A DNA stretch of 64,000 bases, taken from contig MBPM02000047.1 in the NCBI GenBank assembly GCA_001695595.3, positions 1 through 64,000 on the forward strand. The letters run 5' to 3'. Every line of letters starts with the position of its first letter. Position 1 is the stretch's first letter. The stretch is from Plasmopara viticola (lineage: Eukaryota; Oomycota; Peronosporomycetes; Peronosporales; Peronosporaceae). Both the position numbers and the translations under genes were made by a program. Shown in pieces: positions 1 through 30,161 of the stretch. Under the pieces are notes generated by a model, which was given only the letters and a program-made list of their open reading frames with translations, searched no databases and was not told the origin of the DNA.

Positions 1-22
1 GTTTGCGATATACCGGTTCGGT

Positions 23-91
23 GGCCTTGTGGTCTAGTGGTATGATCGCTTAGGGTGCGAGAGGTCCCGGATTCGATCTCCGGCAAGGCCC
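23..91 (+). tRNA. tRNA-Pro(AGG) unit 1, variant
   Basis: 69 nt. Three bases are missing from the 5' strand of the anticodon stem (GATCGC instead of GATTCTCGC); the rest is consensus. Probably impaired, or a sequence error. Confidence 0.7.
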
Positions 92-367
92 TATTGCAGC
101 TCCCTATTTTAATGGAAATTTCATTTTGCTGAATTTGTTTCTGTGCGCTTTGTGTAATCTTGCTGGCTTGGTAGATGCTTAAGAAGGGTCAGCTTCAATT
201 TCACTTTGTACGAACGGTATACTTCAATTTTTCATGGTCATACCAGCAGCTCTGTAGGGAGTGAAAGATCGGCATTGTCGTTGCATTAGTGCATCACGAA
301 AACGAGCAAGCCCACGCTGATGATATTTTATAAATAAGAAGTTGGGTTTGCGATTTACCGGTTCGGT

Positions 368-439
368 GGCCTTGTGGTCTAGTGGTATGATTCTCGCTTA
401 GGGTGCGAGAGGTCCCGGATTCGATCTCCGGCAAGGCCC
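368..439 (+). tRNA. tRNA-Pro(AGG) unit 2
   Basis: Consensus copy, followed by a type B spacer; 342 bp to the next unit. Confidence 0.94.
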
Positions 440-709
440 TATTGCAGCTCCCTATTTTAGTGAAAATGTCATTCTGCAATTTTTGTTTCTGTGCAATCTT
501 GCTGGCTTGGCTGGTGCTTAAGGAAGGGTTAATTATCGATTTAACTTTAGACGAATGGTATACTTCAATTTTATCATGATACTCAGCAGCTCTGTAAGGA
601 GTGAAAGATTGGCATTGTTGTAGCATCAGCAGATCAGAAATAAGATCAAGCCCACGCTGATGATATTGTTTATATATAAGAAGTTGGGTTTGCGATATAC
701 CGGTTCGGT

Positions 710-781
710 GGCCTTGTGGTCTAGTGGTATGATTCTCGCTTAGGGTGCGAGAGGTCCCGGATTCGATCTCCGGCAAGGCCC
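710..781 (+). tRNA. tRNA-Pro(AGG) unit 3
   Basis: Consensus copy; upstream box reads TATATATA; 353 bp to the next unit. Confidence 0.94.
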
Positions 782-1062
782 TATTTCTGTTCCTATTTTA
801 ATGGAAATTTCATTTTGCTAAATTTGTTTCTGTGCGCTTTGTGTAATCTTGCTGGCTTGGTAGATGCTTAAGGAAGGGTCAGCTATCAATTTCACTTTGT
901 ACGAACGGTATACTTCAAATTGTTTTATGGTCATATCAGCAGCTCTATAAGGAGTGAAAGATCGGCATCGTCGTAGCATTAGTGCATCACGAAAACGAGC
1001 AAGCCCACGCTGATGATATTCTTTATAAATAAGAAGTTGGGTTTGCGATATACCGGTTCGGT

Positions 1063-1134
1063 GGCCTTGTGGTCTAGTGGTATGATTCTCGCTTAGGGTG
1101 CGAGAGGTCCCGGATTCGATCTCCGGCAAGGCCC
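1063..1134 (+). tRNA. tRNA-Pro(AGG) unit 4
   Basis: Consensus copy; the following unit is short (325 bp) through many spacer deletions. Confidence 0.93.
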
Positions 1135-1387
1135 TATTGCAGCTCCCTATTTTAGTGAAATTCATTTGCAATTTGTTTCTGTGCGCTTCTTGCTGGCTTG
1201 GCTGCTTAAGGAAGGTAATATCAATTTACTTTAGACGAAGGTATACTTCAAATTTTTATGGTCATATCAGCAGCTCTGTAAGAGTGAAAGATCGGCATTG
1301 TTGTAGCATCAGCATCACGAAAAAGACAAGCCCACGCTGATGATTTGTTATAAATAAGAAGTTGGGTTTGCGATATACCGGTTCGGT

Positions 1388-1459
1388 GGCCTTGTGGTCT
1401 AGTGGTATGATTCTCGCTTAGGGTGCGAGAGGTCCCGGATTCGATCTCCGGCAAGGCCC
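1388..1459 (+). tRNA. tRNA-Pro(AGG) unit 5
   Basis: Consensus copy; 332 bp to the next unit. Confidence 0.94.
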
Positions 1460-1719
1460 TATTTCTGCTCCCTATTTTAATGGAAATTTCATTTTGCAAT
1501 TTGTTGTTTTGTAATCTTGCTGGCTTGGTAGGCTTAAGAAGGGTCATATCAATTTACTTTGTACGAACGGTATACTTCAAATTTTCATGGTCATATCAGC
1601 AGCTCTGTAAGGAGTGAAAGATCGGCATCGTTGTAGCATTAGCATCACGAAAAAGCAAGCCCACGCTGATGATATTCTTTATAAATAAGAAGTTGGGTTT
1701 GCGATATTACCGGTTCGGT

Positions 1720-1791
1720 GGCCTTGTGGTCTAGTGGTATGATTCTCGCTTAGGGTGCGAGAGGTCCCGGATTCGATCTCCGGCAAGGCCC
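1720..1791 (+). tRNA. tRNA-Pro(AGG) unit 6
   Basis: Consensus copy; one extra T in the 5' flank (GATATTACC); 347 bp to the next unit. Confidence 0.94.
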
Positions 1792-2066
1792 TATTTCTGC
1801 TCCCTATTTTAATGGAAATTTCATTTTGCGAATTTGTTTCTGTGCGCTTTGTGTAATCTTGCTGGCTTGGTAGATGCTTAAGGGTCAGCTATCAATTTAC
1901 TTTGTACGAACGGTATACTTCAAATTGTTTTATGGTCATATCAGCAGCTCTATAAGGAGTGAAAGATCGGCATCGTCGTAGCATTAGTGCATCACGAAAA
2001 CGAGCAAGCCCACGCTGATGATATTGTTTTAAATAAGAAGTTGGGTTTGCGATATACCGGTTCGGT

Positions 2067-2137
2067 GGCCTTGTGGTCTAGTGGTATGATTCTCGCTTAG
2101 GGTGCGAGAGGTCCGGATTCGATCTCCGGCAAGGCCC
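2067..2137 (+). tRNA. tRNA-Pro(AGG) unit 7, one-base deletion
   Basis: 71 nt: GGTCCGG instead of GGTCCCGG, so one C of the variable-loop/T-stem run is lost. May still fold with a shorter variable loop. Confidence 0.8.
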
Positions 2138-5872: not shown

Positions 5873-6149
5873 TATTGCTGCTCCCTATTTTAATGGAAAT
5901 TTCATTGCTAATTTGTTTCTGTGCGCTTTGTGTAATCTTGCTGGCTTGGTAGATGCTTAAGGAAGGGTCAGCTATCAATTTCACTTTGTACGAACGGTAT
6001 ACTTCAAATTGTTTTATGGTCATACAGCAGCTCTGTAAGGAGTGAAAGATCGGCATCGTCGTAGCATTAGTGCATCACGAAAACGAGCAAGCCCACGCTG
6101 ATGATATTGTTATAAATAAGAAGTTGGGTTTGCGATATACCGGTTCGGT

Positions 6150-6221
6150 GGCCTTGTGGTCTAGTGGTATGATTCTCGCTTAGGGTGCGAGAGGTCCCGG
6201 ATTCGATCTCCGGCAAGGCCC
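6150..6221 (+). tRNA. tRNA-Pro(AGG) unit 19
   Basis: Consensus copy; 348 bp to the next unit. Confidence 0.94.
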
Positions 6222-6497
6222 TATTTCTGCTCCCTATTTTAATGGAAATTTCATTTTGCGAAATTTGTTTCTGTGCGCTTTGTGTAATCTTGCTGGCTTG
6301 GTAGATGCTTAAGGGTCAGCTATCAACTTCACTTTGTACGAACGGTATACTTCAAATTTTTATGGTCATATCAGCAGCTCTGTAAGGAGTGAAAGATCGG
6401 CATCGTCGTAGCATTAGTGCATCACGAAAACGAGCAAGCCCACGCTGATGATATTCTTTATAAATAAGAAGTTGGGTTTGCGATATACCGGTTCGGT

Positions 6498-6569
6498 GGC
6501 CTTGTGGTCTAGTGGTATGATTCTCGCTTAGGGTGCGAGAGGTCCCGGATTCGATCTCCGGCAAGGCCC
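6498..6569 (+). tRNA. tRNA-Pro(AGG) unit 20
   Basis: Consensus copy; 347 bp to the next unit. The 3' flank reads CTATTTAAGG, so the usual TTTT is TTT. Confidence 0.93.
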
Positions 6570-6844
6570 TATTTCTGCTCCCTATTTAAGGAAATTTCAT
6601 TTTGCTGAAATTTGTTTCTGTGCGCTTTGTGTAATCTTGCTGGCTTGGTAGATGCTTAAGGGTCAGCTGTCAATTTCACTTTGTACGAACGGTATACTTC
6701 AAATTGTTTTATGGTCATATCAGCAGCTCTGTAAGGAGTGAAAGATCGGCATCGTCGTAGCATTCGTGCATCACGAAAACGAGCAAGCCCACGCTGATGA
6801 TATTGTTATAATAAGAAGTTGGGTTTGCGATATACCGGTTCGGT

Positions 6845-6916
6845 GGCCTTGTGGTCTAGTGGTATGATTCTCGCTTAGGGTGCGAGAGGTCCCGGATTCG
6901 ATCTCCGGCAAGGCCC
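6845..6916 (+). tRNA. tRNA-Pro(AGG) unit 21
   Basis: Consensus copy; 341 bp to the next unit. Confidence 0.94.
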
Positions 6917-7185
6917 TATTTCTCCTATTTTAATGGAAATTTCATTTTGCGAATTTGTTTCTGTGCGCTTTGTGTATCTTGCTGGCTTGGTAGATGCTTA
7001 AGGGTCAGCTATCAACTTCATTTTGTACGAACGGTATACTTTAAATTGTTTATGGTCATACAGCAGCTCTGTAGGAGTGAAAGATCGGCATCGTCGTAGC
7101 ATTAGTGCATCACGAAAACGAGCAAGCCCACGCTGATGATATTGTCTATAAATAAGAAGTTGGGTTTGCGATATACCGGTTCGGT

Positions 7186-7257
7186 GGCCTTGTGGTCTAG
7201 TGGTATGATTCTCGCTTAGGGTGCGAGAGGTCCCGGATTCGATCTCCGGCAAGGCCC
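7186..7257 (+). tRNA. tRNA-Pro(AGG) unit 22
   Basis: Consensus copy; 350 bp to the next unit. Confidence 0.94.
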
Positions 7258-7535
7258 TATTTCTGCTCCCTATTTTAAGGGAAATTTCATTTTGCTGAAT
7301 TTGTTTCTGTGCGCTTTGTGTAATCTTGCTGGCTTGGTAGATGCTTAAGGGTCAGCTATCAATTTCACTTTGTACGAACGGTATACTTTAAATTGTTTCA
7401 TGGTCATACCAGCAGCTCTGTAGGGAGTGAAAGATCGGCATCGTCGTAGCATTAGTGCATCACGAAAACGAGCAAGCCCACGCTGATGATATTGTCTATA
7501 AATAAGAAGTTGGGTTTGCGATATACCGGTTCGGT

Positions 7536-7607
7536 GGCCTTGTGGTCTAGTGGTATGATTCTCGCTTAGGGTGCGAGAGGTCCCGGATTCGATCTCCGGC
7601 AAGGCCC
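7536..7607 (+). tRNA. tRNA-Pro(AGG) unit 23
   Basis: Consensus copy; 351 bp to the next unit. Confidence 0.94.
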
Positions 7608-7886
7608 TATTTCTGCTCCCTATTTTAATGGAAACTTTATTCTGCGAAATTTGTTTCTGTGCGCTTTGTGTTATCTTGCTGGCTTGGTAGATGCTTAAGA
7701 GGTCAGCTGTCAATTTCACTTTGTACGAACGGTATACTTCAAATTGTTTTATGGTCATATCAGCAGCTCTATAAGGAGTGAAAGATCGGCATCGTCGTAG
7801 CATTAGTGCATCACGAAAACGAGCAAGCCCACGCTGATGATATTCTTTATAAATAAGAAGTTGGGTTTGCGATATACCGGTTCGGT

Positions 7887-7958
7887 GGCCTTGTGGTCTA
7901 GTGGTATGATTCTCGCTTAGGGTGCGAGAGGTCCCGGATTCGATCTCCGGCAAGGCCC
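7887..7958 (+). tRNA. tRNA-Pro(AGG) unit 24
   Basis: Consensus copy; 350 bp to the next unit. Confidence 0.94.
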
Positions 7959-8236
7959 TATTTCTGCTCCCTATTTTAAGCGAAATTTCATTTTGCGAAA
8001 TTTGTTTCTGTGCGCTTTGTGTTAGCTTGCTGGCTTGGTAGATGCTTAAGGGTCAGCTATCAACTTCATTTTGTACGAACGGTATACTTTAAATTGTTTC
8101 ATGGTCATACCAGCAGCTCTGTAGGGAGTGAAAGATCGGCATCGTCGTAGCATTAGTGCATCACGAAAACGAGCAAGCCCACGCTGATGATATTGTCTAT
8201 AAATAAGAAGTTGGGTTTGCGATATACCGGTTCGGT

Positions 8237-8308
8237 GGCCTTGTGGTCTAGTGGTATGATTCTCGCTTAGGGTGCGAGAGGTCCCGGATTCGATCTCCGG
8301 CAAGGCCC
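8237..8308 (+). tRNA. tRNA-Pro(AGG) unit 25
   Basis: Consensus copy; 350 bp to the next unit. Confidence 0.94.
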
Positions 8309-8547
8309 TATTTCTGCTCCCTATTTTAATGGAAATTTCATTTTGCTGAATTTGTTTCTGTGCGCTTTGTGTTATCTTGCTGGCTTGGTAGATGCTTAAG
8401 GGTCAGCTGTCAATTTCACTTTGTACGAACGGTATACTTCAAATTGTTTTATGGTCATATCAGCAGCTCTATAAGGAGTGAAAGATCGGCATCGTCGTAG
8501 CATTAGTCCATCACGAAAACGAGCAAGCCCACGCTGATGATATTGTT

Positions 8548-8555
8548 TATAAATA
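8548..8555 (+). promoter_or_regulatory. TATAAATA box upstream of tRNA unit 26 (representative of array)
   Basis: TATAAATA lies 39 bp before the first base of the tRNA. The same box, or TATATATA, precedes most units at the same distance, followed by a conserved stretch ending CGATATACCGGTTCGGT directly at the tRNA. In plants, TATA-like boxes at about -30 promote RNA polymerase III transcription of tRNA genes. The same role here is inferred from position and conservation. Confidence 0.6.
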
Positions 8556-8586
8556 AGAAGTTGGGTTTGCGATATACCGGTTCGGT

Positions 8587-8658
8587 GGCCTTGTGGTCTA
8601 GTGGTATGATTCTCGCTTAGGGTGCGAGAGGTCCCGGATTCGATCTCCGGCAAGGCCC
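8587..8658 (+). tRNA. tRNA-Pro(AGG) unit 26
   Basis: Consensus copy followed by a type B spacer; 345 bp to the next unit. Confidence 0.95.
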
Positions 8659-8673
8659 TATTGCTGCTCCCTA

Positions 8674-8677
8674 TTTT
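8674..8677 (+). terminator. Pol III terminator TTTT after tRNA unit 26 (representative)
   Basis: A four-T run starts 16 nt after the discriminator base. It lies in CTATTTTAATGG, which recurs after most array units. A minimal T4 run is a typical eukaryotic RNA polymerase III stop and would give a short 3' trailer. Confidence 0.7.
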
Positions 8678-8931
8678 AATGGAAATTTCATTTTTCAAAT
8701 TTCGTTTCTGTGCAATCTTGCTGGCTTGGCTGGTGCTTAAGGAAGGGTTAATTATCAATTTCACTTTAGACGAACGGTATACTTCAAACTTTATTATGGT
8801 CATATCAGCAGCTCTGTAAGGAGTGAAAGATCGGCATTGTTGTAGCATCAGCAGATCACAAATAAGATCAAGCCCACGCTAATGATATTGTTTATAAATA
8901 AGAAGTTGGGTTTGCGATATACCGGTTCGGT

Positions 8932-9003
8932 GGCCTTGTGGTCTAGTGGTATGATTCTCGCTTAGGGTGCGAGAGGTCCCGGATTCGATCTCCGGCAAGG
9001 CCC
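8932..9003 (+). tRNA. tRNA-Pro(AGG) unit 27
   Basis: Consensus copy followed by a second type B spacer; 345 bp to the next unit. Confidence 0.94.
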
Positions 9004-9276
9004 TATTTTTGCTCCTTATTTTAGTGGAGATTTCATTTTGCAAATTTTGTTTCTGTGCAATCTTGCTGGCTTGGCTGGTGCTTAAGGAAGGGTTAATTAT
9101 CAATTTCACTTTAGACGAACGGTATACTTCAAACTTTGATATGGTCATATCAGCAGGTCTGTAAGGAGTGAAAGATCGGCATTGTTGTAGCATCAGCAGA
9201 TCACAAATAAGATCAAGCCCACGCTAATGATATTGTTTATAAATAAGAAGTTGGGTTTGCGATATACCGGTTCGGT

Positions 9277-9347
9277 GGCCTTGTGGTCTAGTGGTATGAT
9301 TCTCGCTTAGGGTGCGAGAGACCCGGATTCGATCTCCGGCAAGGCCC
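9277..9347 (+). tRNA. tRNA-Pro(AGG) unit 28, variable-loop variant
   Basis: 71 nt: GAGAGACCCGG replaces GAGAGGTCCCGG, so the variable loop is one base shorter and altered. Stems are intact. Confidence 0.85.
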
Positions 9348-9625
9348 TATTTCTGCTCCCTATTTTAATGGAAATTTCATTTTGCGAAATTTGTTTCTGT
9401 GCGCTTTGTGTTATCTTGCTGGCTTGGTAGATGCTTAAGGGTCAGCTATCAATTTCACTTTGTACGAACGGTATACTTCAAATTTTTTTATGGTCATATC
9501 AGCAGCTCTGTAAGGAGTGAAAGATCGGCATCGTCGTAGCATTAGTGCATCACGAAAACGAGCAAGCCCACGCTGATGATATTGTTTATAAATAAGAAGT
9601 TGGGTTTGCGATATACCGGTTCGGT

Positions 9626-9697
9626 GGCCTTGTGGTCTAGTGGTATGATTCTCGCTTAGGGTGCGAGAGGTCCCGGATTCGATCTCCGGCAAGGCCC
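9626..9697 (+). tRNA. tRNA-Pro(AGG) unit 29
   Basis: Consensus copy; 349 bp to the next unit. Confidence 0.94.
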
Positions 9698-9974
9698 TAT
9701 TTCTGCTCCTATTTTAATGGAAATTTCATTTTGCTAAATTTGTTACTGTGCGCTTTGTGTTATCTTGCTGGCTTGGTAGATGCTTAAGGGTCAGCTATCA
9801 ACTTCACTTTGTACGAACGGTATACTTTAAATTGTTTCATGGTCATATCAGCAGCTCTATAAGGAGTGAAAGATCGGCATCGTCGTAGCATTAGTGCATC
9901 ACGAAAACGAGCAAGCCCACGCTGATGATATTGTTTATAAATAAGAAGTTGGGTTTGCGATATACCGGTTCGGT

Positions 9975-10046
9975 GGCCTTGTGGTCTAGTGGTATGATTC
10001 TCGCTTAGGGTGCGAGAGGTCCCGGATTCGATCTCCGGCAAGGCCC
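9975..10046 (+). tRNA. tRNA-Pro(AGG) unit 30
   Basis: Consensus copy; 349 bp to the next unit. Confidence 0.94.
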
Positions 10047-10323
10047 TATTTCTGCTCCCTATTTTAATGGAAATTTCATTTTGCGAAATTTGTTTCTGTG
10101 CGCTTTGTGTTATCTTGCTGGCTTGGTAGATGCTTAAGGGTCAGCTGTCAATTTCACTTTGTACGAACGGTATACTTCAAATTGTTTTATGGTCATATCA
10201 GCAGCTCTATAAGGAGTGAAAGATCGGCATCGTCGTAGCATTAGTGCATCACGAAAACGAGCAAGCCCACGCTGATGATATTGTTATAAATAAGAAGTTG
10301 GGTTTGCGATATACCGGTTCGGT

Positions 10324-10395
10324 GGCCTTGTGGTCTAGTGGTATGATTCTCGCTTAGGGTGCGAGAGGTCCCGGATTCGATCTCCGGCAAGGCCC
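10324..10395 (+). tRNA. tRNA-Pro(AGG) unit 31
   Basis: Consensus copy; 343 bp to the next unit. Confidence 0.94.
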
Positions 10396-10666
10396 TATTT
10401 CTGCTTCCTATTTTAAGGGAAATTTCATTTTGCTGATTTGTTTCTGTGCGCTTTGTGTTATCTTGCTGGCTTGGTAGATGCTTAAGGGTCAGCTGTCAAT
10501 TTCACTTTGTACGAACGGTATACTTCAAATTGTTTTATGGTCATATCAGCAGCTCTGTAAGGAGTGAACGGCATCGTCGTAGCATTAGTGCATCACGAAA
10601 ACGAGCAAGCCCACGCTGATGATATTTTATAAATAAGAAGTTGGGTTTGCGATATACCGGTTCGGT

Positions 10667-10738
10667 GGCCTTGTGGTCTAGTGGTATGATTCTCGCTTAG
10701 GGTGCGAGAGGTCCCGGATTCGATCTCCGGCAAGGCCC
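10667..10738 (+). tRNA. tRNA-Pro(AGG) unit 32
   Basis: Consensus copy; 349 bp to the next unit. Confidence 0.94.
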
Positions 10739-11015
10739 TATTTCTGCTCCCTATTTTAATGGAAATTTCATTTTGCGAAATTTGTTTCTGTGCGCTTTGT
10801 GTTATCTTGCTGGCTTGGTAGATGCTTAAGGGTCAGCTGTCAATTTCACTTTGTACGAACGGTATACTTCAAATTGTTTATGGTCATATCAGCAGCTCTG
10901 AAGGGAGTGAAAGATCGGCATCGTCGTAGCATTAGTGCATCACGAAAACGAGCAAGCCCACGCTGATGATATTCTTTATAAATAAGAAGTTGGGTTTGCG
11001 ATATACCGGTTCGGT

Positions 11016-11087
11016 GGCCTTGTGGTCTAGTGGTATGATTCTCGCTTAGGGTGCGAGAGGTCCCGGATTCGATCTCCGGCAAGGCCC
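11016..11087 (+). tRNA. tRNA-Pro(AGG) unit 33
   Basis: Consensus copy; 348 bp to the next unit. Confidence 0.94.
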
Positions 11088-19377: not shown

Positions 19378-19449
19378 GGCCTTGTGGTCTAGTGGTATGA
19401 TTCTCGCTTAGGGTGCGAGAGGTCCCGGATTCGATCTCCGGCAAGGCCC
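19378..19449 (+). tRNA. tRNA-Pro(AGG) unit 57
   Basis: Consensus copy; 349 bp to the next unit. Confidence 0.94.
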
Positions 19450-19726
19450 TATTTCTGTTCCTATTTTAATGGAAATTTCATTTTGCTAAATTTGTTTCTG
19501 TGCGCTTTGTGTAATCTTGCTGGCTTGGTAGATGCTTAAGGGTCAGCTATCAATTTCACTTTGTACGAACGGTATACTTCAAATTGTTTTATGGTCATAT
19601 CAGCAGCTCTATAAGGAGTGAAAGATCGGCATCGTCGTAGCATTAGTGCATCACGAAAACGAGCAAGCCCACGCTGATGATATTCTTTATAAATAAGAAG
19701 TTGGGTTTGCGATATACCGGTTCGGT

Positions 19727-19798
19727 GGCCTTGTGGTCTAGTGGTATGATTCTCGCTTAGGGTGCGAGAGGTCCCGGATTCGATCTCCGGCAAGGCCC
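19727..19798 (+). tRNA. tRNA-Pro(AGG) unit 58
   Basis: Consensus copy; 342 bp to the next unit. Confidence 0.94.
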
Positions 19799-20068
19799 TA
19801 TTTCTGCTCCCTATTTTAATGGAAATTTCATTTTGCGAAATTTGTTTCTGTGCGCTTTGTGTTATCTTGCTGGCTTGGTAGATGCTTAAGGGTCAGCTAT
19901 CAACTTCACTTTGTACGAACGGTATACTCTAAATTGTTTCATGGTCAGCTCTGTAGGGAGCGAAAGATCGGCATCGTCGTAGCATTAGTGCATCACGAAA
20001 ACGAGCAAGCCCACGCTGATGATATTGTCTATAAATAAGAAGTTGGGTTTGCGATATACCGGTTCGGT

Positions 20069-20140
20069 GGCCTTGTGGTCTAGTGGTATGATTCTCGCTT
20101 AGGGTGCGAGAGGTCCCGGATTCGATCTCCGGCAAGGCCC
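20069..20140 (+). tRNA. tRNA-Pro(AGG) unit 59
   Basis: Consensus copy followed by a chimeric B/A/B spacer; 343 bp to the next unit. Confidence 0.94.
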
Positions 20141-20411
20141 TATTTCTGCTCCCTATTTTAATGGAAATTTCATTCTGCAATTTTTGTTTCTGTGCAATCT
20201 TGCTGGCTTGGCTGGTGCTTAAGGGGGTCAGCTATCAATTTCACTTTGTACGAACGGTATACTTCAAACTTTATTACGGTCATATCAGCAGCTCTGTAAG
20301 GAGTGAAAGATCGGCATTGTTGTAGCATCAGCAGATCAGAAATAAGATCAAGCCCACGCTGATGATATTGTTTATATATAAGAAGTTGGGTTTGCGATAT
20401 ACCGGTTCGGT

Positions 20412-20483
20412 GGCCTTGTGGTCTAGTGGTATGATTCTCGCTTAGGGTGCGAGAGGTCCCGGATTCGATCTCCGGCAAGGCCC
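20412..20483 (+). tRNA. tRNA-Pro(AGG) unit 60
   Basis: Consensus copy; upstream box reads TATATATA; 349 bp to the next unit. Confidence 0.94.
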
Positions 20484-20760
20484 TATTTCTGCTTCCTATT
20501 TTAATGGAAATTTCATTTTGCTAAATTTGTTTTTGTGCGCTTTGTGTAATCTTGCTGGCTTGGTAGATGCTTAAGGGTCAGCTATCAATTTCACTTTGTA
20601 CGAACGGTATACTTCAAATTGTTTTATGGTCATATCAGCAGCTCTGTAAGGAGTGAAAGATCGGCATCGTCGTAGCATTAGTGCATCACGAAAACGAGCA
20701 AGCCCACGCTGATGATATTCTTTATATATAAGAAGTTGGGTTTGCGATATACCGGTTCGG

Positions 20761-20828
20761 TTGTGGTCTAGTGGTATGATTCTCGCTTAGGGTGCGAGAG
20801 GTCCCGGATTCGATCTCCGGCAAGGCCC
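20761..20828 (+). pseudogene. tRNA-Pro(AGG) unit 61, 5' truncated
   Basis: Five bases (TGGCC) are missing at the 5' boundary, so positions 1-4 of the acceptor stem are lost. The remainder is consensus. Only three acceptor pairs can form, so a functional tRNA is unlikely. Confidence 0.8.
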
Positions 20829-21110
20829 TATTGCTGCTCCCTATTTTAATGGAAATTTCATTTTGGTAAATTTGTTTCTGTGCTCTTTATGTAATCTTGC
20901 TGGCTTGGTAGATGCTTAAGGAAGGGTTAGCTATCAATTTCACTTAAGACTAACTGTATACTTAAAATTGTTTTATGGTCATATCAGCAGCTGTGTAGGG
21001 AGCGAAAGATCGGCATCGTCGTAGCATCAGCAGATCACAAATAAGATCAAGCCCACGCTGATGATATTGTTTATAAATAAGAAGTTGGGTTTGCGATATA
21101 CCGGTTTGGT

Positions 21111-21182
21111 GGCCTTGTGGTCTAGTGGTATGATTCTCGCTTAGGGTGCGAGAGGTCCCGGATTCGATCTCCGGCAAGGCCC
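21111..21182 (+). tRNA. tRNA-Pro(AGG) unit 62
   Basis: Consensus copy; its upstream flank differs by one base (CCGGTTTGGT); 349 bp to the next unit. Confidence 0.94.
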
Positions 21183-21459
21183 TATTTCTGCTCCCTATTT
21201 TAATGGAAATTTCATTTTGCTAAATTTGTTTCTGTGCGCTTTGTGTTACCTTGCTGGCTTGGTAGATGCTCAAGGGTCAGCTGTCGATTTCACTTTGTAC
21301 GAACGGTGTACTTCAAAATGTTTTATGGTCATATCAGCAGCTCTGTAAGGAGTGAAAGATCGGCATCGTCGTAGCATTCGTGCATCACGAAAACGAGCAA
21401 GCCCACGCTGATGATATTGTTTATAAATAAGAAGTTGGGTTGCGATATACCGGTTCGGT

Positions 21460-21531
21460 GGCCTTGTGGTCTAGTGGTATGATTCTCGCTTAGGGTGCGA
21501 GAGGTCCCGGATTCGATCTCCGGCAAGACCC
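21460..21531 (+). tRNA. tRNA-Pro(AGG) unit 63, acceptor mismatch
   Basis: 3' acceptor strand reads CAAGACC, giving one C-A mismatch in the stem. Otherwise consensus. Confidence 0.8.
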
Positions 21532-21813
21532 TATTTCTGCTCCTTCTTTTAATGGAAATTTCATTTTGCGGAATTTGTTACTGTTAGCTTTGTGTAATCT
21601 TGCTGGCTTGGTAGATGCTTAAGGAAGGGTCAGCTATCAATTTCACTTTGTACGAACGGTATACTTCAAATTGTTTTATGGTCATATCAGCAGCTCTGTA
21701 AGGAGTGAAAGATCGGCATCGTCGTAGCATTAGTGCATCACGAAAACGAGCAAGCCCACGCTGATGATATTCTTTATAAATAAGAAGTTGGGTTTGCGAT
21801 ATACCGGTTCGGT

Positions 21814-21885
21814 GATCTTGTGGTCTAGTGGTATTATTCTCGCTTAGGGTGCGAGAGGTCCCGGATTCGATCTCTGGCAAGGCCA
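21814..21885 (+). tRNA. tRNA-Pro(AGG) unit 64, variant
   Basis: 5' strand GATCTTG gives one A-C mismatch and a wobble. The D arm has TATTATT for TATGATT, the T stem has TCTGG (wobble), and the discriminator is A. AGG anticodon retained. Confidence 0.65.
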
Positions 21886-22163
21886 GATTGCTGCTCCCTA
21901 TTTTGATGGAAATTTCATTTTGGTAAATTTGTTACTGTGCTCTTTGTGTTATCTTGCTGGCTTGGTAGATGCTCAAGGGTCAGCTATCGATTTCACTTTG
22001 TACGAACGGTATACTTCAAATTGTTTTATGGTCATATCAGCAGCTCTATAAGGAGTGAAAGATCGGTATCGTCGTAGCATTAGTGCATCACGAAAACGAG
22101 CAAGCTCACGCTGATGATATTGTTTATAAATAAGAAGTTGGGTTTGCGATATACCGGTTCGGT

Positions 22164-22235
22164 GGCCTTGTGGTCTAGTGGTATGATTCTCGCTTAGAGT
22201 GCGAGAGGTCCCGGATTCGATCTCTGGCACGGCCC
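22164..22235 (+). tRNA. tRNA-like unit 65, anticodon AGA (Ser)
   Basis: Anticodon loop reads TTAGAGT, so the anticodon is AGA instead of AGG. The anticodon stem is intact. The acceptor has one mismatch (CACGGCC) and the T stem one wobble (TCTGG). Either a decaying tRNA-Pro or a potential mis-decoding tRNA. Confidence 0.7.
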
Positions 22236-22507
22236 AATTGCTGCTCCCTTTTTTAGTGGAGATTTCATTTTGCAAATTTCGTTTCTGTGCAATCTTGCTG
22301 GATTGGCTGGTGCTTAAGGAAGGGTCAATTATCAATTTAACTTTAGACGAATGGTATACTTCAAATTTTATCATGGTCACATCAGCAGCTCTGTAAGGAG
22401 TGAAAGATTGGCATTGTTGTAGCATCAGCAGATCAGAAATAAGATTAAGCCCACGCTGATGATATTGTTTATATAAGGAAGTTGGGTTTGCGATATACCG
22501 GTTCGGT

Positions 22508-22579
22508 GGTCTAGTGGTCTAGTGGTATGATTCTCGCTTAGGGTGCGAGAGGTCCTGGATTCGATCTCCGGCAAGGCCC
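22508..22579 (+). tRNA. tRNA-Pro(AGG) unit 66, acceptor altered
   Basis: The 5' end reads GGTCTAG followed by TGGTCTAG, as if the D-arm start had been copied over the acceptor strand, leaving a mismatch and a wobble. T stem has one C-to-T change. Confidence 0.6.
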
Positions 22580-22857
22580 TATTGCTGCTCCCTATTTTGA
22601 TGGAAATTTCATTTTGCAAAATTTGTTTCTGTGCACTTTGTGTTACCTTGCTGGCTTGGTCGATGCTTAAGGGTCAGCTGTCAATTTTACTTTGTACGAA
22701 CGGTATACTTCAAATTGTTTTATGGTCATATCAGCAGCTCTATAAGGAGTGAAAGATCGGCATCGTCGTAGCATTAGTGCATCACGAAAACGAGCAAGCT
22801 CACGCTGATGATATTCTTTATAAATAAGAAGTTGGGTTTGCGATATACCGGTTCGGT

Positions 22858-22929
22858 GGCCTTGTGGTCTAGTGGTATGATTCTCGCTTAGGGTGCGAGA
22901 GGTCCCGGATTCGATCTCCGGCAAGGCCC
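22858..22929 (+). tRNA. tRNA-Pro(AGG) unit 67
   Basis: Consensus copy, the last before the 1405-bp interruption. Confidence 0.94.
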
Positions 22930-23157
22930 TATTTCTGCTCCCTATTCTAATGAAAATTTCATTTTGCGAAATTTGTTACTGTGCGCTTTGTGTTATCTTA
23001 CTGGCTTGGTAGATGCTTAAGGGTCAGCTGTCAATTTTACTTTGTACGAACGGTATACTTTGAATTGTTTTATGGTCATATCACAAGCTCTGTAAGGAGT
23101 GAAAGATCGGCAACGTCGTAGCATTCGTGCATCACGAAAACGAGCAAGCCCACGCTG

Positions 23158-24562
23158 CAGGGAGAAGGGTTAAGTGCCCTGCATCCTGGATAAAGAGGGC
23201 TTCACAAGAGCAAATATACGATTAGTTGTGTCCAGTACCGACTCCGCCGAGATCACACGATGGCCGTGGTGCTCTAGTTGACTACAGTTTTCAAAAAAAT
23301 GACCACCTGAGCAGTCCAATGTAAATGGACCTGTTTTTTTTTCAAGACATCGAAGCCTCTCTGCTCTGTTCGACTTTTCAGTACTGTCACAAAAAAATAC
23401 TAGATTGTCGCTCTTCACACAAAAGCTCGAAATCCTCCCCCAACTCACTGGGGGAACCATGGGAATAAAGACATATCCCGAAATTGACTTTCACTCTGCT
23501 CAATCGCTGGCCCAGTCTGCATCAAAGTGAGAGCATGAAATTTGCGCACTGAATTATATGCAATATGGTTTTTAACATAGTAAGACTCATCACTTTCTAG
23601 CTTATTCACTGCTTGAGGAACTCTGAAATTCGTCATCCTTTCGATTACTGAATGCAGTGCAGATTTTCTGTACCTAGATCGCAAATTCAAATAAACTCAA
23701 TCAAGCTCCTCCTCAATCGAGACTTGTCTCAAGCTTGTGTCAGAGAGGACCGTTAAAATACAAAGTCATAGCTTGAAGCGAGCTTGTTGCAAATTCGCGG
23801 GCTCCGTCGTGTCGTACAAACTTGACCTTCTTAACCCTCAATACGCTTCCTCAATGCGACCACACATGTATGCCGAGCGCTTCCATCAAGTCCTTGTGAT
23901 GCGGTCCTGGTAGTCCCTTCCACGAACGAAGCATTATGTCGTAACGGCACCCAGCGCTCCGATAGTTTTTTTCGGTGAGTGTTCAGCTTTTGCTCGGCCT
24001 CCCACGAAAAGAAATGCGAACGCCACGCGCACGCGATATCCGTGTTTCAGGCTCGTGCTTTTTTTTCAGAAAGCGCTGAAATTGCGCTCAGATTTCTCGC
24101 CCTCTATGATGTATGTGGCAGCAGAGATATACGGCTATAAACCGCGAAGCAATTTGAAGGTATTGTGAGTGGCATCAATTACATCGTCTAGTGTTTGTGG
24201 CATAACGATTCTCGTTAGTTAGAAAGGACGTATCTATGGCCGTAGATCATCTATGCACTTCCAAAGAGCAGATGTACGCTTAGTTGTGTGATTAGATACT
24301 TCTTTTCTTTTATTCTAGACGCGTGCAGCTCTGAGAGATGTACACATCCAATCGCGGCAAATCAGGTCGACTTAGCCAGCAGCCTAGTAAAGCGAACATT
24401 CGCTGTTGGGAAGTGCTGTGAAGATAGTGAGAAGCGAGTTTTTCTGTGATTATTGGTACGATCCACATAGTGAGAGGTTTAGAACTACAAGAGATTGTCT
24501 TGCAGCACAAGCTTAACTTTCAGCGGTTGACGACGACTGTCGGCAAATTTGACCACCAGAGG
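23158..24562. other. 1405-bp unrelated insert inside the tRNA array
   Basis: Sequence without similarity to the repeat unit. The array spacer stops at CACGCTG and resumes at GATATTG, which in intact units are separated only by AT. I see no clear inverted termini or target duplication. Two short minus-strand frames (about 23170-23460 and 23445-23690) give unrecognised proteins of 96 and 81 residues and are not convincing genes. Confidence 0.75.
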
Positions 24563-24609
24563 GATATTGTTTATAAATAAGAAGTTGGGTTTGCGATATA
24601 CCATTTCAT

Positions 24610-24681
24610 GGCCTTATGGTCTAGTGGTATGATTCTCGCTTAGGAAGCGAGAGGTCCCGGATTCGATCTCCGGCAAGGCCC
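24610..24681 (+). tRNA. tRNA-Pro(AGG) unit 68, variant
   Basis: Acceptor base 7 is A (GGCCTTA), losing one pair. Anticodon loop is TTAGGAA with AGG retained. The immediate 5' flank is also changed (CCATTTCAT). Confidence 0.75.
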
Positions 24682-24959
24682 TATTTCTGCTCCTTATTTT
24701 AATGGAAATTTCATTTTGCTAAATTTGTTACTGTGCGCTTTGTGTTACCTTGCTGGCTTTGTAGATGCTCAAGGGTCAGCTGCCAATTTCACTTTGTACG
24801 AACGGTATACTTCAAATTGTTTTATGGTCATATCAGCAGCTCTGTAAGGAGTGAAAGATCGGCATCGTCGTAGCATTAGTGCATCACGAAAACGAGCAAG
24901 CCCACGCTGATGATATTCATTATAAATAAGAAGTTGAGTTTGCGATATACCGGTTCGGT

Positions 24960-25031
24960 GGTCTAGTGGTCTAGTGGTATTATTCTCGCTTAGGGTGCGA
25001 GAGGTCCCGGATTCGATCTCTGGCAAGGCCC
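24960..25031 (+). tRNA. tRNA-Pro(AGG) unit 69, acceptor altered
   Basis: Starts GGTCTAGTGGTCTAG like unit 66, with TATTATT in the D arm and TCTGG in the T stem. Probably impaired. Confidence 0.6.
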
Positions 25032-25313
25032 TATTGCTGCTCCCTATTTTAATGGAACTTTCATTTTGGTAAATTTGTTTCTGTGCTCTTTATGTAATCT
25101 TGCTGGCTTGGTAGATGCTTAAGGAAGGGTTAGCTATCAATTCCACTTTAGACTAATTGTATACTTCAAATTTTATTATGGTCATATCAGCAGCTCTGTA
25201 AGGATTGAAAGATCGGCATCGTCGTAGCATCAGTAGATCACAAATAAGATCAAGGCCACGCTGATGATATTGTTTATAAATAAGAAGTTGGGTTTGCGAT
25301 ATACCGATTTGGT

Positions 25314-25385
25314 GGCTTTGTGGTCTAGTGGTATGATTCTCGCTTAGGGTGCGAGAGGTCCCGGATTCGATCTCCGGCAAGGCCC
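25314..25385 (+). tRNA. tRNA-Pro(AGG) unit 70
   Basis: One change, GGCTTTG, giving a G-T wobble at acceptor pair 4. Folding should be preserved. Confidence 0.85.
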
Positions 25386-25663
25386 TTTTTCTGCTCTCTA
25401 TTTTTAAAGAAATTTCATTTTGCTAAATTTGTTACTGTGCTCTTTGTGTTATCTTGCTGGTTTGGTAGATGCTCAAGGGTCAGCTGTCAATTTTACTTTG
25501 TACGAACGGTATACTTCAAATTGTTTTATGGTCATATCAGCAGCTCTGTAAGGAGTGAAAGATCGGCATCGTCGTAGCATTAGTGCATCACGAAAACGAG
25601 CAAGCCCACGCTGATGATATTCTTTATAAATAAGAAGTTGGGTTTGCGATATACCGGTTCGGT

Positions 25664-25735
25664 GGCCTTGTGGTCTAGTGGTATGATTCTCGCTTAGGGT
25701 GCGAGAGGTCCCGGATTCGATCTCCGGCACGGCCC
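25664..25735 (+). tRNA. tRNA-Pro(AGG) unit 71, acceptor mismatch
   Basis: 3' acceptor strand CACGGCC gives one mismatch, shared with unit 65, 3500 bp upstream. Otherwise consensus. Confidence 0.8.
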
Positions 25736-26007
25736 AATTGCTGCTCCCTTTTTTAGTGGAGATTTCATTTTGCAAATTTCGTTTCTGTGCAATCATGCTG
25801 GCTTGGCTGGTGCTTAAGAAAGGGTCAATTATCAATTTAGCTTTGAGCGAATGGTATACTTCAAATTTTATCATGGTCACATCAGCAGCTCTGTAAGGAG
25901 TGAAAGATTGGCATTGTTGTAGCATCAGCAGATCAGAAATAAGATTAAGCCCACGCTGATGATATTGTTTATATAAAGAAGTTGGGTTTGCGATATACCG
26001 GTTCGGT

Positions 26008-26079
26008 GGTCTAGTGGTCTAGTGGTATGATTCTCGCTTAGTGTGCGAGAGATCCCGGATTCGATTTCCGGTAAGGCCC
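26008..26079 (+). tRNA. tRNA-like unit 72, anticodon AGT (Thr)
   Basis: Anticodon loop reads TTAGTGT, giving AGT. Anticodon stem intact. The acceptor 5' strand is the GGTCTAG form, and the 3' side is TTCCGGTAAGGCC with further changes. Likely a decaying copy. Confidence 0.6.
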
Positions 26080-26361
26080 TATTGCTGCTCCCAATTTTAA
26101 TGGAAATTTCATTTTGCTAAATTTGTTACTGTGCGCTTTGTGTTATCTTGCTGGCTTGGTAGATGCTTAAGGAAGGGTCAGCTATCAATTTCACTTTGTA
26201 CGAACGGTATACTTCAAATTGTTTTATGGTCATATCAGCAGCTCTGTATGGAGTGAAAGATCGGCATCGTCGTAGCATTAGTGCATCACGAAAACGAGCA
26301 AGCCCACGCTGATGATATTCATTATAAATAAGAAGTTGGGTTTGCGATATACCGGTTCGGT

Positions 26362-26433
26362 GGTCTTGTGGTCTAGTGGTATTATTCTCGCTTAGGGTGC
26401 GAGAGGTCCCGGATTCGATCTCTGGCAAGGCCC
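26362..26433 (+). tRNA. tRNA-Pro(AGG) unit 73, variant
   Basis: GGTCTTG (one wobble) with TATTATT in the D arm and TCTGG in the T stem. 1402 bp after the related unit 69. Confidence 0.7.
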
Positions 26434-26715
26434 TATTGCTGCTCCCTATTTTAATGGAAATTTCATTTTGGTAAATTTGTCTCTGTGCTCTTTATGTAAT
26501 CTTGCTGGCTTGGTAGATGCTTAAGGAAGGGTTAGCTATCAATTTCACTTTAGACTAATTGTATACTTCAAATTTTATTATGGTCATATCAGCAGCTCTG
26601 TAAGGATTGAAAGATCGGCATCGTCGTAGCATCAGTAGATCACAAATAAGATCAAGGCCACGCTGATGATATTGTTTATAAATAAGAAGTTGGGTTTGCG
26701 ATATACCGATTTGGT

Positions 26716-26787
26716 GGCTTTGTGGTCTAGTGGTATGATTCTCGCTTAGGGTGCGAGAGGTCCCGGATTCGATCTCCGGCAAGGCCC
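26716..26787 (+). tRNA. tRNA-Pro(AGG) unit 74
   Basis: GGCTTTG as in unit 70, exactly 1402 bp downstream of it. One acceptor wobble only. Confidence 0.85.
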
Positions 26788-27065
26788 TATTTCTGCTCCC
26801 TATTTTTAAAGAAATTTCATTTTGCTGAATTTGTTACTGTGCTCTTTGTGTTATCTTGCTGGCTTGGTAGATGCTCAAGGGTCAGCTGTCAATTTTACTT
26901 TGCACGAACGGTATACTTCAAATTGTTTTATGGTCATATCAGCAGCTCTGTAAGGAGTGAAAGATCGGCATCGTCGTAGCATTAGTGCATCACGAAAACG
27001 AGCAAGCCCACGCTGATGATATTGTTTATAAATAAGAAGTTCGGTTTGCGATATACTGGTTCGGT

Positions 27066-27137
27066 GGCCTTGTGGTCTAGTGGTATGATTCTCGCTTAGG
27101 GTGCGAGAGGTCCCGGATTCGATCTCCGGCAAGGCCC
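27066..27137 (+). tRNA. tRNA-Pro(AGG) unit 75
   Basis: Consensus copy; followed by a type B spacer. Confidence 0.93.
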
Positions 27138-27410
27138 TGTTGCAGCTCCCTATTTTAGTGAAAATGTCATTCTGCAATTTTTGTTTCTGTGCAATCTTGC
27201 TGGCTTGGCTGGTGCTTAAGGAAGGGTTAATTATCAATTTAACTTTAGACAAATGGTATACTTCATATTTTATCATGGTCACATCAGCAGCTCTGTGAGG
27301 AGTGAAAGATTGGCATTGTTGTAGCATCAGCAGATCAGAAATAAGATCAAGCCCACGCTGATGATATTCTTTATAAATAAGAAGTTGGGTTTGCGATTTA
27401 TCGGTTCGGT

Positions 27411-27482
27411 GGCCTTGTAGTCTAGTGGTATGATTCTCGCTTAGGGTGCGAGAGGTCCCGGATTCGATCTCCGGCAAGGCCC
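27411..27482 (+). tRNA. tRNA-Pro(AGG) unit 76
   Basis: Only change is A at position 9 (TAGTCTAG). A9 is common in tRNAs, so it is probably functional. Confidence 0.88.
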
Positions 27483-27810
27483 TATTGCTGCTCCCTATAA
27501 AAGTGGATATTTCATTTTGCAAATTTATTCCTGTGCAATCTTGCTGGCTTGGCTGGTGCCTAAGGAAAAGTTAACTATCAATTTAACTTTAGACGAATGG
27601 TGAACTTCAAATTGTTTTATGGTTATATCAGCAGCTTTGTAAGGAGTGGAAGATCAGGATTGTCGTAGCATTTGTGCATCACGAAAACGAACAAGTTAAC
27701 GCTGATGATAATGCTAGTGCATAAAATACAAAACAATATCGTCATATTTAAAAGGTACGTTTCTAAAGCTTGAGTGATATTAACGCTAACGAGGTTTCCA
27801 CCGGTTCGAT

Positions 27811-27859
27811 GGCCTTGGTCAAGCGGTATGATTCTCGCTTAGGATGCGAGAGGTCCCGG
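27811..27859 (+). pseudogene. tRNA-Pro(AGG) unit 77, 3' truncated
   Basis: Acceptor, D arm (GTCAAGCGG) and anticodon arm (TTAGGAT) are present, but the sequence breaks inside the T stem at GGTCCCGG and jumps into mid-spacer sequence (CTGGTATACTTC). No T loop or 3' acceptor strand. Confidence 0.85.
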
Positions 27860-28073
27860 CTGGTATACTTCAAATTTAATTATGGTCATGTCAGCAGCTC
27901 TGTAAGGAGTGAAAGATCAGGATTGTCGTAGCATTTGTGCATCACGAAAACGAACAAGTTAATGCTGATGATAATGTTAGTGCATAAAATACAAAACAAT
28001 ATCGTCATATTTAAAAGATACGTTTCTAAAGCCTAAATGATATTGACGTTAACGAGGTTTCCACCGCTTCGGT

Positions 28074-28145
28074 GGCCTTGTGGTCTAGTGGTATGATTCT
28101 CGCTTAGGATGCGAGAGGTCCCGGATTCGATCTTCGGCAAGGCCC
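28074..28145 (+). tRNA. tRNA-Pro(AGG) unit 78
   Basis: Loop TTAGGAT (AGG anticodon) and one T-stem wobble (TTCGG); otherwise consensus. The upstream flank is the alternative cassette shared with unit 77 and lacks TATAAATA at -39. Confidence 0.82.
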
Positions 28146-28417
28146 TATTGCTGCTCCCTATTTTAGTGGAATTTGCATTTTCCTAATTTTGTTTCTGTGC
28201 AATCTTGCTGGCTTGGCTGGTGCTTAAGAAAGGGTTAACTATCGATTTAACTTTGGACGAATGGTGTACTTCAAATTCTATCATGATCATATTAGCAGCT
28301 CTGTAAGGAGTGAAAGATCGGCATTGTTGTAGCATCAGCAGATCAGAAATAAGATCAAGCCCACGCTGATGATAATGTTTATAGATAAAAGATGAGTTTG
28401 CGATATACCGATTCGGT

Positions 28418-28489
28418 GGCCTTGTGGTCTAGTTGTGTGCTTTCAGCTTGCTGTGCGAGAGGTCCCAGATTCGATCTTCGGCAAGGCCC
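28418..28489 (+). pseudogene. tRNA-Pro relic, unit 79
   Basis: Acceptor and T arm are largely intact, but the D and anticodon arms are rewritten (TTGTGTGCTTTCAGCTTGC) so the anticodon stem no longer pairs. Confidence 0.75.
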
Positions 28490-28769
28490 TATTGCTGCTC
28501 CCTATTTTAATGGAAAGTGCATTTAGATATTTTTGTTTCTGCGCGCTATGTGTAATCTTGCTGGCTTGGTAGATGCATAAGGAAGGGTCAGCTTATAATT
28601 TCAGTTTAGACGAATGGTATACTTCAGGTTTTCATGGTCATGTCGGCGGTTTTGTAAGGAGTGAAAGATCGGCATTGTCGTAGCAATAGTACATCACAAA
28701 TAAGAACAAGACCACGCTGATGTAAATGTTTATGAATAAGAAGATGAGTTTGCGGTATACTGGTTTGGG

Positions 28770-28841
28770 GGCCTTGTGGTCTAGTAGTACGATTTTCGCT
28801 TAGGGTGCGAGAGGTCCCGGATCCGATCTTCGGCAAGGCCC
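28770..28841 (+). pseudogene. tRNA-Pro(AGG) unit 80, decayed
   Basis: Anticodon AGG retained, but D-arm changes (AGTAGTACGATTTTCGC) and a B-box substitution (ATCCGATC) are expected to weaken transcription and folding. Confidence 0.65.
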
Positions 28842-29113
28842 TATTGCTGCTCCCTATTTTAGTGGAATTTGCATTTTCGTAAATTTGTTTCTGTGCAATC
28901 TTGCTGGCTTGGCTGGTGCTTAAGAAAGGGTTTACTATCAATTACACTTTGTACGAATGGTAAGCTGCAAATTGTTTAATGGTCATATCAGCAGCTCTGT
29001 AAGGAGTGGAAGATCGGCATTGTCGTAGCATTAGTTCATCACAAAACCGAACAAGCCCACGCTAATAAATTGTTTATACAACAAAATATTTGGTTGCGAA
29101 GAACACGTTCGGT

Positions 29114-29181
29114 GGCCATGTGGCCTTGTGGTATGATGCTCGCTTAGGGTGCGAGAGGTCCCGGATTCGATTTCTGGCAAG
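29114..29181 (+). pseudogene. tRNA-Pro relic, unit 81
   Basis: Reads GGCCATGTGGCCTTGTGG at the 5' end, keeps the TTAGGGT loop, and loses the 3' acceptor strand after TCTGGCAAG. Confidence 0.75.
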
Positions 29182-29425
29182 TGCATTTTTTTCTGTGCAC
29201 CATGTTCTATCTTGCTGGCTTGGCGGATGTCAGAGGAACGATTAGCTGTTAATCTAAATTTGACGAACGGTAACGCTAAAGAATCCATTATTGTCCCATC
29301 AGCAGCTCTGGAAAGGGAGAGGAATCGGCATTGTCGTAGCATTTGTGCATCACAAACAAAAACAAGCCCACGATGATAATAATCTTAAAAAATAAGAAGA
29401 TGTGTTTGCGATATACCGGTTTGGT

Positions 29426-29495
29426 GGCCTTGTGGTCTAGTGGTGTGAGTCTCACTTAGGGTGCGAGAGGTTTCGGATTCGATCTCTGGGGGGCC
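29426..29495 (+). pseudogene. tRNA-Pro relic, unit 82
   Basis: Full-length outline with TTAGGGT, but anticodon stem CTCAC/GCGAG has a mismatch and the 3' end is TCTGGGGGGCC. Confidence 0.7.
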
Positions 29496-29771
29496 TATTG
29501 CAGCTCCGTTTTTTTATGAAGTGTGCTTCTAGCTTTTTATTTTCTGTGCACTGTATTTGACGAAGCTGGCTTAGTAGATGGTAAAGGAACTATTCCTGTC
29601 CATTGTACTTGCGACGAACGGTCGTGATTGGAACTATATTTTAGTCATTTGAACAGCTCTGCAAGGGGTGAAGAATTGGCCTTGTCATAGCAATAATGTG
29701 TCACAAATACAAACAAGCTCACGCTACGGTTGGCGTCTAAAAGAAAATATGTGTTTGTGATGTTTTAATTA

Positions 29772-29838
29772 GATGGTTGTTTAATGTAGTGGTATGATTC
29801 TCGCTTCGGGGGCGAGATGTCCCGAATTCCGGCGAGGA
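29772..29838 (+). pseudogene. tRNA-Pro relic, unit 83 (anticodon CGG)
   Basis: Anticodon arm CTCGC-TTCGGGG-GCGAG pairs perfectly and would give anticodon CGG, also proline. The acceptor and T arm are eroded (CCCGAATTCCGG). Confidence 0.55.
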
Positions 29839-30096
29839 TTTGTTGCTGCTCACCGTTTAAGCGAGTGTGCATTTTGCTTGGTTTTATTGTTGTGCACAAT
29901 ATTTTACACATTTATGACCTAACTGGTTGGGCAGATGCATAAAGAATGATTATCTTTTAGTTGTAGTCTCGACGAATGATAGTGCTTGGAAAATATCATG
30001 ATAATTTTAGCAGCTCTGCAAAGGGTAAAGAATCAGCAATGTCATAATGCCACGCTGTGGTTGGTTTCAGGATAAAATGTGTGTGTGATAATCGAT

Positions 30097-30161
30097 TGCC
30101 CTGTGGTGTAGCGGTATGCACTGGGTGCGAGAGATCTCGAATTCGATCTCCGGCAAGGCCC
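30097..30161 (+). pseudogene. tRNA-Pro relic, unit 84 (array edge)
   Basis: TTGCCCTGTGGTGTAGCGG, a shortened anticodon region, then a well preserved B box and CAAGGCCC end. The last recognisable unit. Confidence 0.65.

Follow-up and report, generated by a model that had tools for sequence, protein, structure and literature searches.

Tandem arrays of transfer RNA (tRNA) genes have been described in two oomycetes. In Phytophthora infestans, 7,519 tRNA genes lie on chromosomes and a further 3,537 on other contigs, with about 64% in one-gene arrays whose variants are often found near one edge and whose copy numbers were confirmed by read depth (PMC9584435, Matson et al. 2022). Clusters in Peronospora effusa number 33-39 and hold between 10 and 970 genes each; they differ in size between isolates and include one of 570 units and 412 kb in which the tRNA is 100% identical, the rest of the unit varies and a resemblance to short interspersed nuclear elements (SINEs) was proposed (PMC11540230). 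In Arabidopsis, one tRNA gene cluster is silenced in most tissues (PMC12308677, PMC10701932). Of two genome papers on Plasmopara viticola searched for tRNA, one mentions it once in passing (PMC13011855) and the other gave no match (PMC5394536). Here we analyse the first 64,000 bases of contig C47 (622,198 bp) of a P. viticola assembly (92,937,831 bases in 358 contigs), a stretch called the window throughout, which begins with a tandem array of tRNA-Pro(AGG) genes of which we found no earlier description in the open-licence literature. The array bears on a published dispute over whether the arrays of Phytophthora and downy mildews, with their thousands of copies, are expanded tRNA genes or SINE-like repeats. 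Two subtypes of spacer, edges that have decayed and another haplotype are all present at this locus, so that the two readings make differing, checkable predictions for it. We consider it probable that P. viticola has one tandem tRNA-Pro(AGG) locus of genuine RNA polymerase III (Pol III) genes that is split between contigs C9 and C47 and has a haplotype on contig C266, and the checks that we made favour genuine tRNA genes over SINE-like repeats.

A blastn search of the window with the 72-nt tRNA as query revealed 84 units between positions 23 and 30161, all on the plus strand and with a mean spacing of 345 bp. The units run head-to-tail, each with the same single tRNA gene and none with several different tRNA genes, and the last of them, from 27811 onwards, are truncated or degenerate. 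The tRNA matches the consensus over its 72 nt in 57 units and differs from it in 27, of which 9 are partial matches only. The two counts of the initial annotation, 84 units with 57 identical tRNAs, were thus reproduced exactly, but its description of each unit as a complete tRNA-Pro gene is slightly too strong because of these 27 units and the 9 partial matches among them. Tandem Repeats Finder (TRF) delimited a tandem array at 1-27710 with a period of 350, ARAGORN called 78 tRNAs in the window (76 Pro(AGG), one Ser(AGA) at 22164 and one Thr(AGT) at 26008), and 72 tRNAs exceeded the Rfam gathering score, the consensus copy reaching 52.8 bits versus a cut-off of 29. Our tRNA calls rest on the gene finder ARAGORN and the Rfam covariance model, both of which accept a cloverleaf for the array tRNA, and not on the plain minimum-energy fold of the bare tRNA, which is not a cloverleaf. 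The Ser and Thr calls are Pro tRNA bodies with altered anticodons (Table 1) and would entail codon misreading if transcribed and charged with proline. Gaps numbered 14-20 per unit in the first 6 kb of the window versus 6-9 at 6-28 kb, an excess that looks like residual long-read error at the contig end, although C9 showed no equally clean fall in gaps per unit.

The window starts at base 1 of its contig and the array is therefore cut by the assembly, which bears out the earlier claim that it runs beyond the left edge. Indeed, contig C9 (1,645,785 bp) starts inside the same Pro(AGG) array in the orientation opposite to that of C47. The first 70,000 bases of C9 contain 204 units, all 204 on the minus strand and 186 of them exact. 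Samples of 400 bases from C9 contained one unit each at 80, 100 and 140 kb and no unit at 155, 160, 165, 170, 180, 200 and 300 kb, the matches listed include further units from 82 to 139 kb, and the array ends with two degenerate units, at C9:145499-145921. When C9 is flipped, its array reads in the same direction as that of C47 and the unique flanks come to lie on opposite outer sides, with the C9 flank upstream and the SCY1-like (SCYL) gene of C47 downstream. On the simplest reading, C9 and C47 would represent a single locus, split by the assembly, that extends over at least about 176 kb and comprises roughly 510 units, the latter being an estimate composed of about 425 units on C9 (at about 343 bp per unit, with C9:70-145 kb sampled only) and the 84 units in the window, which shows about one sixth of the inferred extent. 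An overlap between the two contigs, hinted at by a rare tRNA variant common to window position 9277 and C9:6052, was rejected: the alignment disagreed and, of all pairings between the first 70 units of the window and the 90 closest to the C9 start, the best reached 0.977 and none attained 0.98 or more. Genome-wide, the exact 43-nt core of the gene occurs 517 times (70 forward and 447 reverse). All forward cores are placed, 64 falling within the window and the other 6 at C9:617 kb, and the reverse cores comprise 192 in C9:1-70000, 39 in the examined 20 kb of C266 and 216 elsewhere; the Pro(AGG) family is concentrated at one or few loci.

The unit is not quite confined to the main array, as two small outlying patches occur on C9. 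The first, at C9:617260-619892 and 470 kb from the array edge, holds about seven array units, one with the anticodon AAG; it begins with a head-to-head inverted junction (617412/617413) and ends inside a tRNA gene. The second, at C9:197010-198315 and 51 kb past the array edge, consists of four degenerate Pro(AGG)-family units on the plus strand, two of them with the anticodon AGA.

Among 342 units from the window, C9 and C266, a run of four or more T residues (T4) lies within 30 nt 3' of the tRNA in 319 (median +16; about 23% expected on shuffling) and TATAW is found at -50 to -16 in 313, with TATAWA at -39 in the two units displayed. As the units share descent, these counts speak for conservation and do not represent 319 independent events. 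Each unit would thereby resemble an ordinary Pol III gene, in which the A and B boxes are internal, a TATA-like box lies near -39 and the T4 run at +16 is the terminator. The spacer comes in two subtypes, A and B, which are distinguished by many alignment columns and accompany the same tRNA. At the T arm pair 53-61 (in our own numbering), the array copies of Pro(AGG) carry A-U versus G-C in Pro(CGG) and Pro(TGG) of the same genome; to our knowledge, a G53-C61 pair is nearly universal in tRNAs. A search for Pro(AGG) copies with a base other than A at position 53 gave 0 matches, although a more diverged gene would escape it; the array is thus the only Pro(AGG) source found, and it may well be the cell's source of tRNA-Pro(AGG).

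In the array interior, the tRNA is far more uniform than the spacer. Across an alignment of 331 of the 342 units (11 were dropped for length or position), the minor base exceeds 20% in 0 of 72 tRNA columns versus 39 of 221 spacer columns. We also compared tRNA and spacer positions for rare substitutions, defined as those seen once or twice, using an interior/edge split that was chosen after seeing where units decay. In the C9 interior these amounted to 9/12731 in the tRNA versus 157/37237 in the spacer (odds ratio (OR) 0.17, p 2e-11) and in the window interior to 1/3023 versus 67/9035 (OR 0.044, p 1e-7); at the window edge they amounted to 55/1497 versus 240/4452 (OR 0.67, p 0.007). With about 500 copies, mutation of any one of them should meet almost no constraint, yet interior tRNAs show rare substitutions at about 1/6 to 1/20 of the spacer odds. 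Unless polishing produced this pattern, a force other than supply might conceivably keep the copies clean, either because altered tRNAs (changed anticodons occur in some edge units) are poisonous and purged singly or through short tRNA-centred conversion tracts. On either version of this tentative proposal, if true, such arrays would offer a natural setting in which to measure how redundant Pol III genes are selected or converted. The same conservation bears on a possible structural job of the array (chromatin boundary, nuclear tethering or fork pausing), in which bound TFIIIC/TFIIIB would matter and the tRNA product would not. The copy number seems far above supply needs and varies by isoacceptor between species, as such a job would allow, and a role in nuclear or chromatin organisation was raised by the authors of the P. 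infestans study (PMC9584435). Yet it would need the A and B boxes only, and all 72 nt are conserved, acceptor and anticodon stems included, with none of the 72 columns above the 20% mark; we consider this explanation unlikely.

Several points weigh against a single locus of genuine Pol III genes whose tRNAs are held constant. First, when all 331 units are pooled, the rare substitutions (71/23770 in the tRNA versus 254/69909 in the spacer, OR 0.82, p 0.16) do not differ significantly, because edge units supply most of the tRNA changes, and the column test is likewise not significant in the window interior alone (0/72 versus 10/221, p 0.13); sites and units are not independent, and all these p-values are indicative. 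Second, the regions compared separately for rare substitutions were the C9 interior, the window interior and the window edge, C266 entering with the pooled units. Third, short-read polishing (Pilon) could erase rare variants more easily in the tRNA than in the spacer, and we regard this as the main technical rival. Fourth, a T4 within 40 nt is missing in one of two Lys units and in both Thr units sampled from other arrays of the genome, so that the terminator is not a general rule. Finally, C9 and C47 do not overlap, and we therefore infer their adjacency.

A different origin of the unit, as a repeat headed by a tRNA-like sequence and multiplied through present or past mobility, was proposed for P. 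effusa, where the clusters were classed as SINE-like given their rapid expansion and a tRNA-like part within a unit of 284-1070 bp (PMC11540230). The outlying fragments of the P. viticola array, recent-looking at C9:617260-619892 and old at C9:197010-198315, would be in keeping with such an origin. By contrast, a 32-nt spacer pattern (at most 3 mismatches) matched the forward strand 77 times, the window holding 66 of the matches, the C9:617 kb patch 7 and the C9:197 kb patch 4, and since all 77 fall at these three sites there are no scattered copies on the forward strand, the strand for which this accounting is complete (the reverse strand has 445 matches). Moreover, the terminator at +16 would halt the Pol III transcript ahead of the spacer, and a tRNA-derived SINE would be expected to lack a Pol III terminator between its tRNA head and its tail. 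The tRNA is also conserved as a cloverleaf and the spacer is not, and the authors of the P. effusa study judge their elements unable to mobilise and ascribe the variation to non-allelic recombination (PMC11540230). We regard a SINE-like nature of the P. viticola unit as quite improbable and favour genuine tRNA genes.

Contig C266 (43,307 bp) bears the SCYL flank at 99% identity to the window and, in the 20 kb examined, contains 57 units of which 29 are exact; an alternative haplotype of the downstream end of the array appears to be the best explanation for it. The array edge on C266 is arranged otherwise than in the window: a block with a truncated 51-nt unit, single in the window, has two copies in C266, which is direct evidence of exchange between units. 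Higher-order structure also varies with position. From 8 to 50 kb, C9 is a dimeric repeat (unit similarity 0.777 at lag 1 and 0.889 at lag 2), the dimer signal is weak from 50 to 70 kb (neighbours 0.835 versus next-neighbours 0.863), and the window interior is monomeric with no dimer signal (neighbours 0.933 versus next-neighbours 0.929), so that, as in satellite DNA, the expansion blocks are not the same throughout the array. Variants gather near the array edge in the window, on C9 and on C266. The sequence supports Pol III genes with turnover by unequal exchange in a head-to-tail array: the array would grow, shrink and be homogenised via unequal crossing-over and gene conversion, purifying selection, perhaps aided by short gene-centred conversion tracts, would preserve the tRNA sequence of interior copies, and units pushed to the edges would escape both selection and conversion and decay.

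The second haplotype also speaks to whether the assembler could have expanded a few units into an array. The contigs come from a PBcR assembly of 8-kb reads with redundancy removal (PMC6660063), and on C9 160 of the 197 units compared are distinct and an exact repeat of 1560 bp is present, so that the exact number of C9 units is uncertain. However, 80 of 81 full-length units are distinct in the window and 53 of 54 in C266, the longest exact direct repeat in the window measures 505 bp, and C47 and C266 each carry their own assembly of the edge, differently arranged inside. Read depth, moreover, confirmed the copy numbers of similar P. infestans arrays (PMC9584435). On the basis of the differing C266 edge and the distinct window units, duplication by the assembler is very unlikely.

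The initial annotation had raised a proline-decoding demand, whereby the copy number would answer the need to read the proline codons CCU, CCC and CCA. Four open reading frames (ORFs) of the window use CCT 31, CCC 14, CCA 29 and CCG 28 times, such that AGG would read most proline codons, but this sample of 102 proline codons from four ORFs is too small to decide the matter. For P. infestans, a modest correlation (R 0.41) links codon use with the number of genes, and the enlarged Pro family reads infrequent codons (PMC9584435). The idea is further weakened in that the large Pro family is AGG in P. viticola versus mostly UGG, with its infrequent codons, in P. infestans (PMC9584435), and in that Asp, Lys and Thr arrays are present in the P. 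viticola genome too; we deem decoding demand an improbable explanation of the copy number. Pro(CGG) has 124 exact cores, 100 of which, among the matches listed, are on C25 and C147; Pro(TGG) has 54 exact cores, all on C40; the Asp(GTC) array has 103 exact cores; and Lys(TTT) and Thr(TGT) units were found in sampled stretches, this survey of other tRNA families covering the best 63 of 13680 candidates and not being a full census. The end of C3 and the starts of C9, C25, C27 and C47 all fall within tRNA arrays. Such arrays are a main place where this assembly breaks, and caution is warranted with contigs of such assemblies, which break inside tRNA arrays.

Near its right-hand end, the array in the window is interrupted by a unit-free insert between two half-spacers (Table 1). 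At least eight snippets of 63-128 bp from this insert match separate contigs (C3, C77, C70, C105 and others, C62, C338, C79 and C8), one of them matching the unit of the tRNA-Asp(GTC) array exactly over 109 bp, and eight snippets explain about 710 of its 1405 bases. About 2 bp of spacer were lost at the insertion point, no target-site duplication was seen, and the insert is missing from the examined 20 kb of the haplotig C266 (0 of 138 31-mers). It resembles filler from break repair, several pieces being multicopy and their true sources thus ambiguous. A single transposable element was rejected as its origin, as no other full-length copy turned up (68 piece matches were listed, from the best 38 of 531 candidates). 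On the far side of the array, just past the last unit, the sequence at about 30168-30295 has matches of 74-80% over about 90-126 bp at five sites (three on C1 and one each on C75 and C46) and is possibly an old dispersed repeat at the array border. The SCYL protein kinase encoded in the unique flank shares 92% identity with proteins from Phytophthora sojae and Plasmopara halstedii, and one 100% match was found as well.

Table 1. Positions of the array, its subdivisions and adjoining features in the window.
Feature	Position	Strand	Remarks
Downstream (right-hand) part of the tRNA-Pro(AGG) array	1..30161	+	84 units, mean spacing 345 bp
Array interior	6000..20500	+	mostly subtype B; unit similarity about equal at any lag (0.93)
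Representative exact 72-nt tRNA-Pro(AGG) copy	14502..14573	+	TATAAA at -39, TTTT at +16
Right edge of the array	20500..30161	+	divergent, decaying units; conservation of tRNA only marginally above that of spacer
Pro tRNA body with anticodon altered to AGA	22164..22235	+	ARAGORN, blastn; within the decaying edge
Unit-free insert between two half-spacers	23158..24562		mosaic, 1.4 kb
Pro tRNA body with anticodon altered to AGT	26008..26079	+	ARAGORN, blastn; within the decaying edge
Unique flank, ORF of SCY1-like (SCYL) protein kinase	30401..32902	+	833 aa

Comparison with known systems places the P. viticola array closest to those of other oomycetes. Arabidopsis also has tandem tRNA gene repeats that vary between strains, but the cases listed there involve far fewer genes (PMC12308677, PMC10701932). 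In Entamoeba, tRNA genes are likewise largely organised in tandem arrays that take up a notable share of the genome; however, its units hold up to five different tRNA genes, some with 5S RNA, and intergenic short tandem repeats (PMC2652664), whereas the P. viticola unit has one gene and lacks intergenic short tandem repeats. By contrast, the earlier statement that no oomycete array of this size was known does not hold, as P. infestans and P. effusa show the same organisation and the P. effusa cluster of 570 units and 412 kb is larger (PMC9584435, PMC11540230). As in P. infestans, a single gene is repeated head-to-tail in monomeric units, copies are nearly identical, a family mostly occupies one locus, variants cluster near an edge and dimeric arrays also occur; growth of the P. 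infestans arrays by unequal crossing-over was suggested (PMC9584435). The two species differ in that the large Pro family is AGG in P. viticola and UGG in P. infestans (PMC9584435), and in that the P. viticola array has a unit of about 345 bp and in part consists of dimers in which the two spacer subtypes accompany one and the same tRNA. P. effusa, which also belongs to the Peronosporaceae, similarly has one family per place and an identical tRNA within an otherwise variable unit (PMC11540230), but its clusters were classed as SINE-like and linked to ORFs in the spacer (PMC11540230), whereas the P. viticola spacer is not scattered on the forward strand. To our mind, the combination of identical tRNA and variable remainder in P. 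effusa is the pattern of P. viticola and would fit tRNA genes better than SINEs. Given the published P. infestans and P. effusa arrays, the P. viticola array therefore belongs to a known kind.

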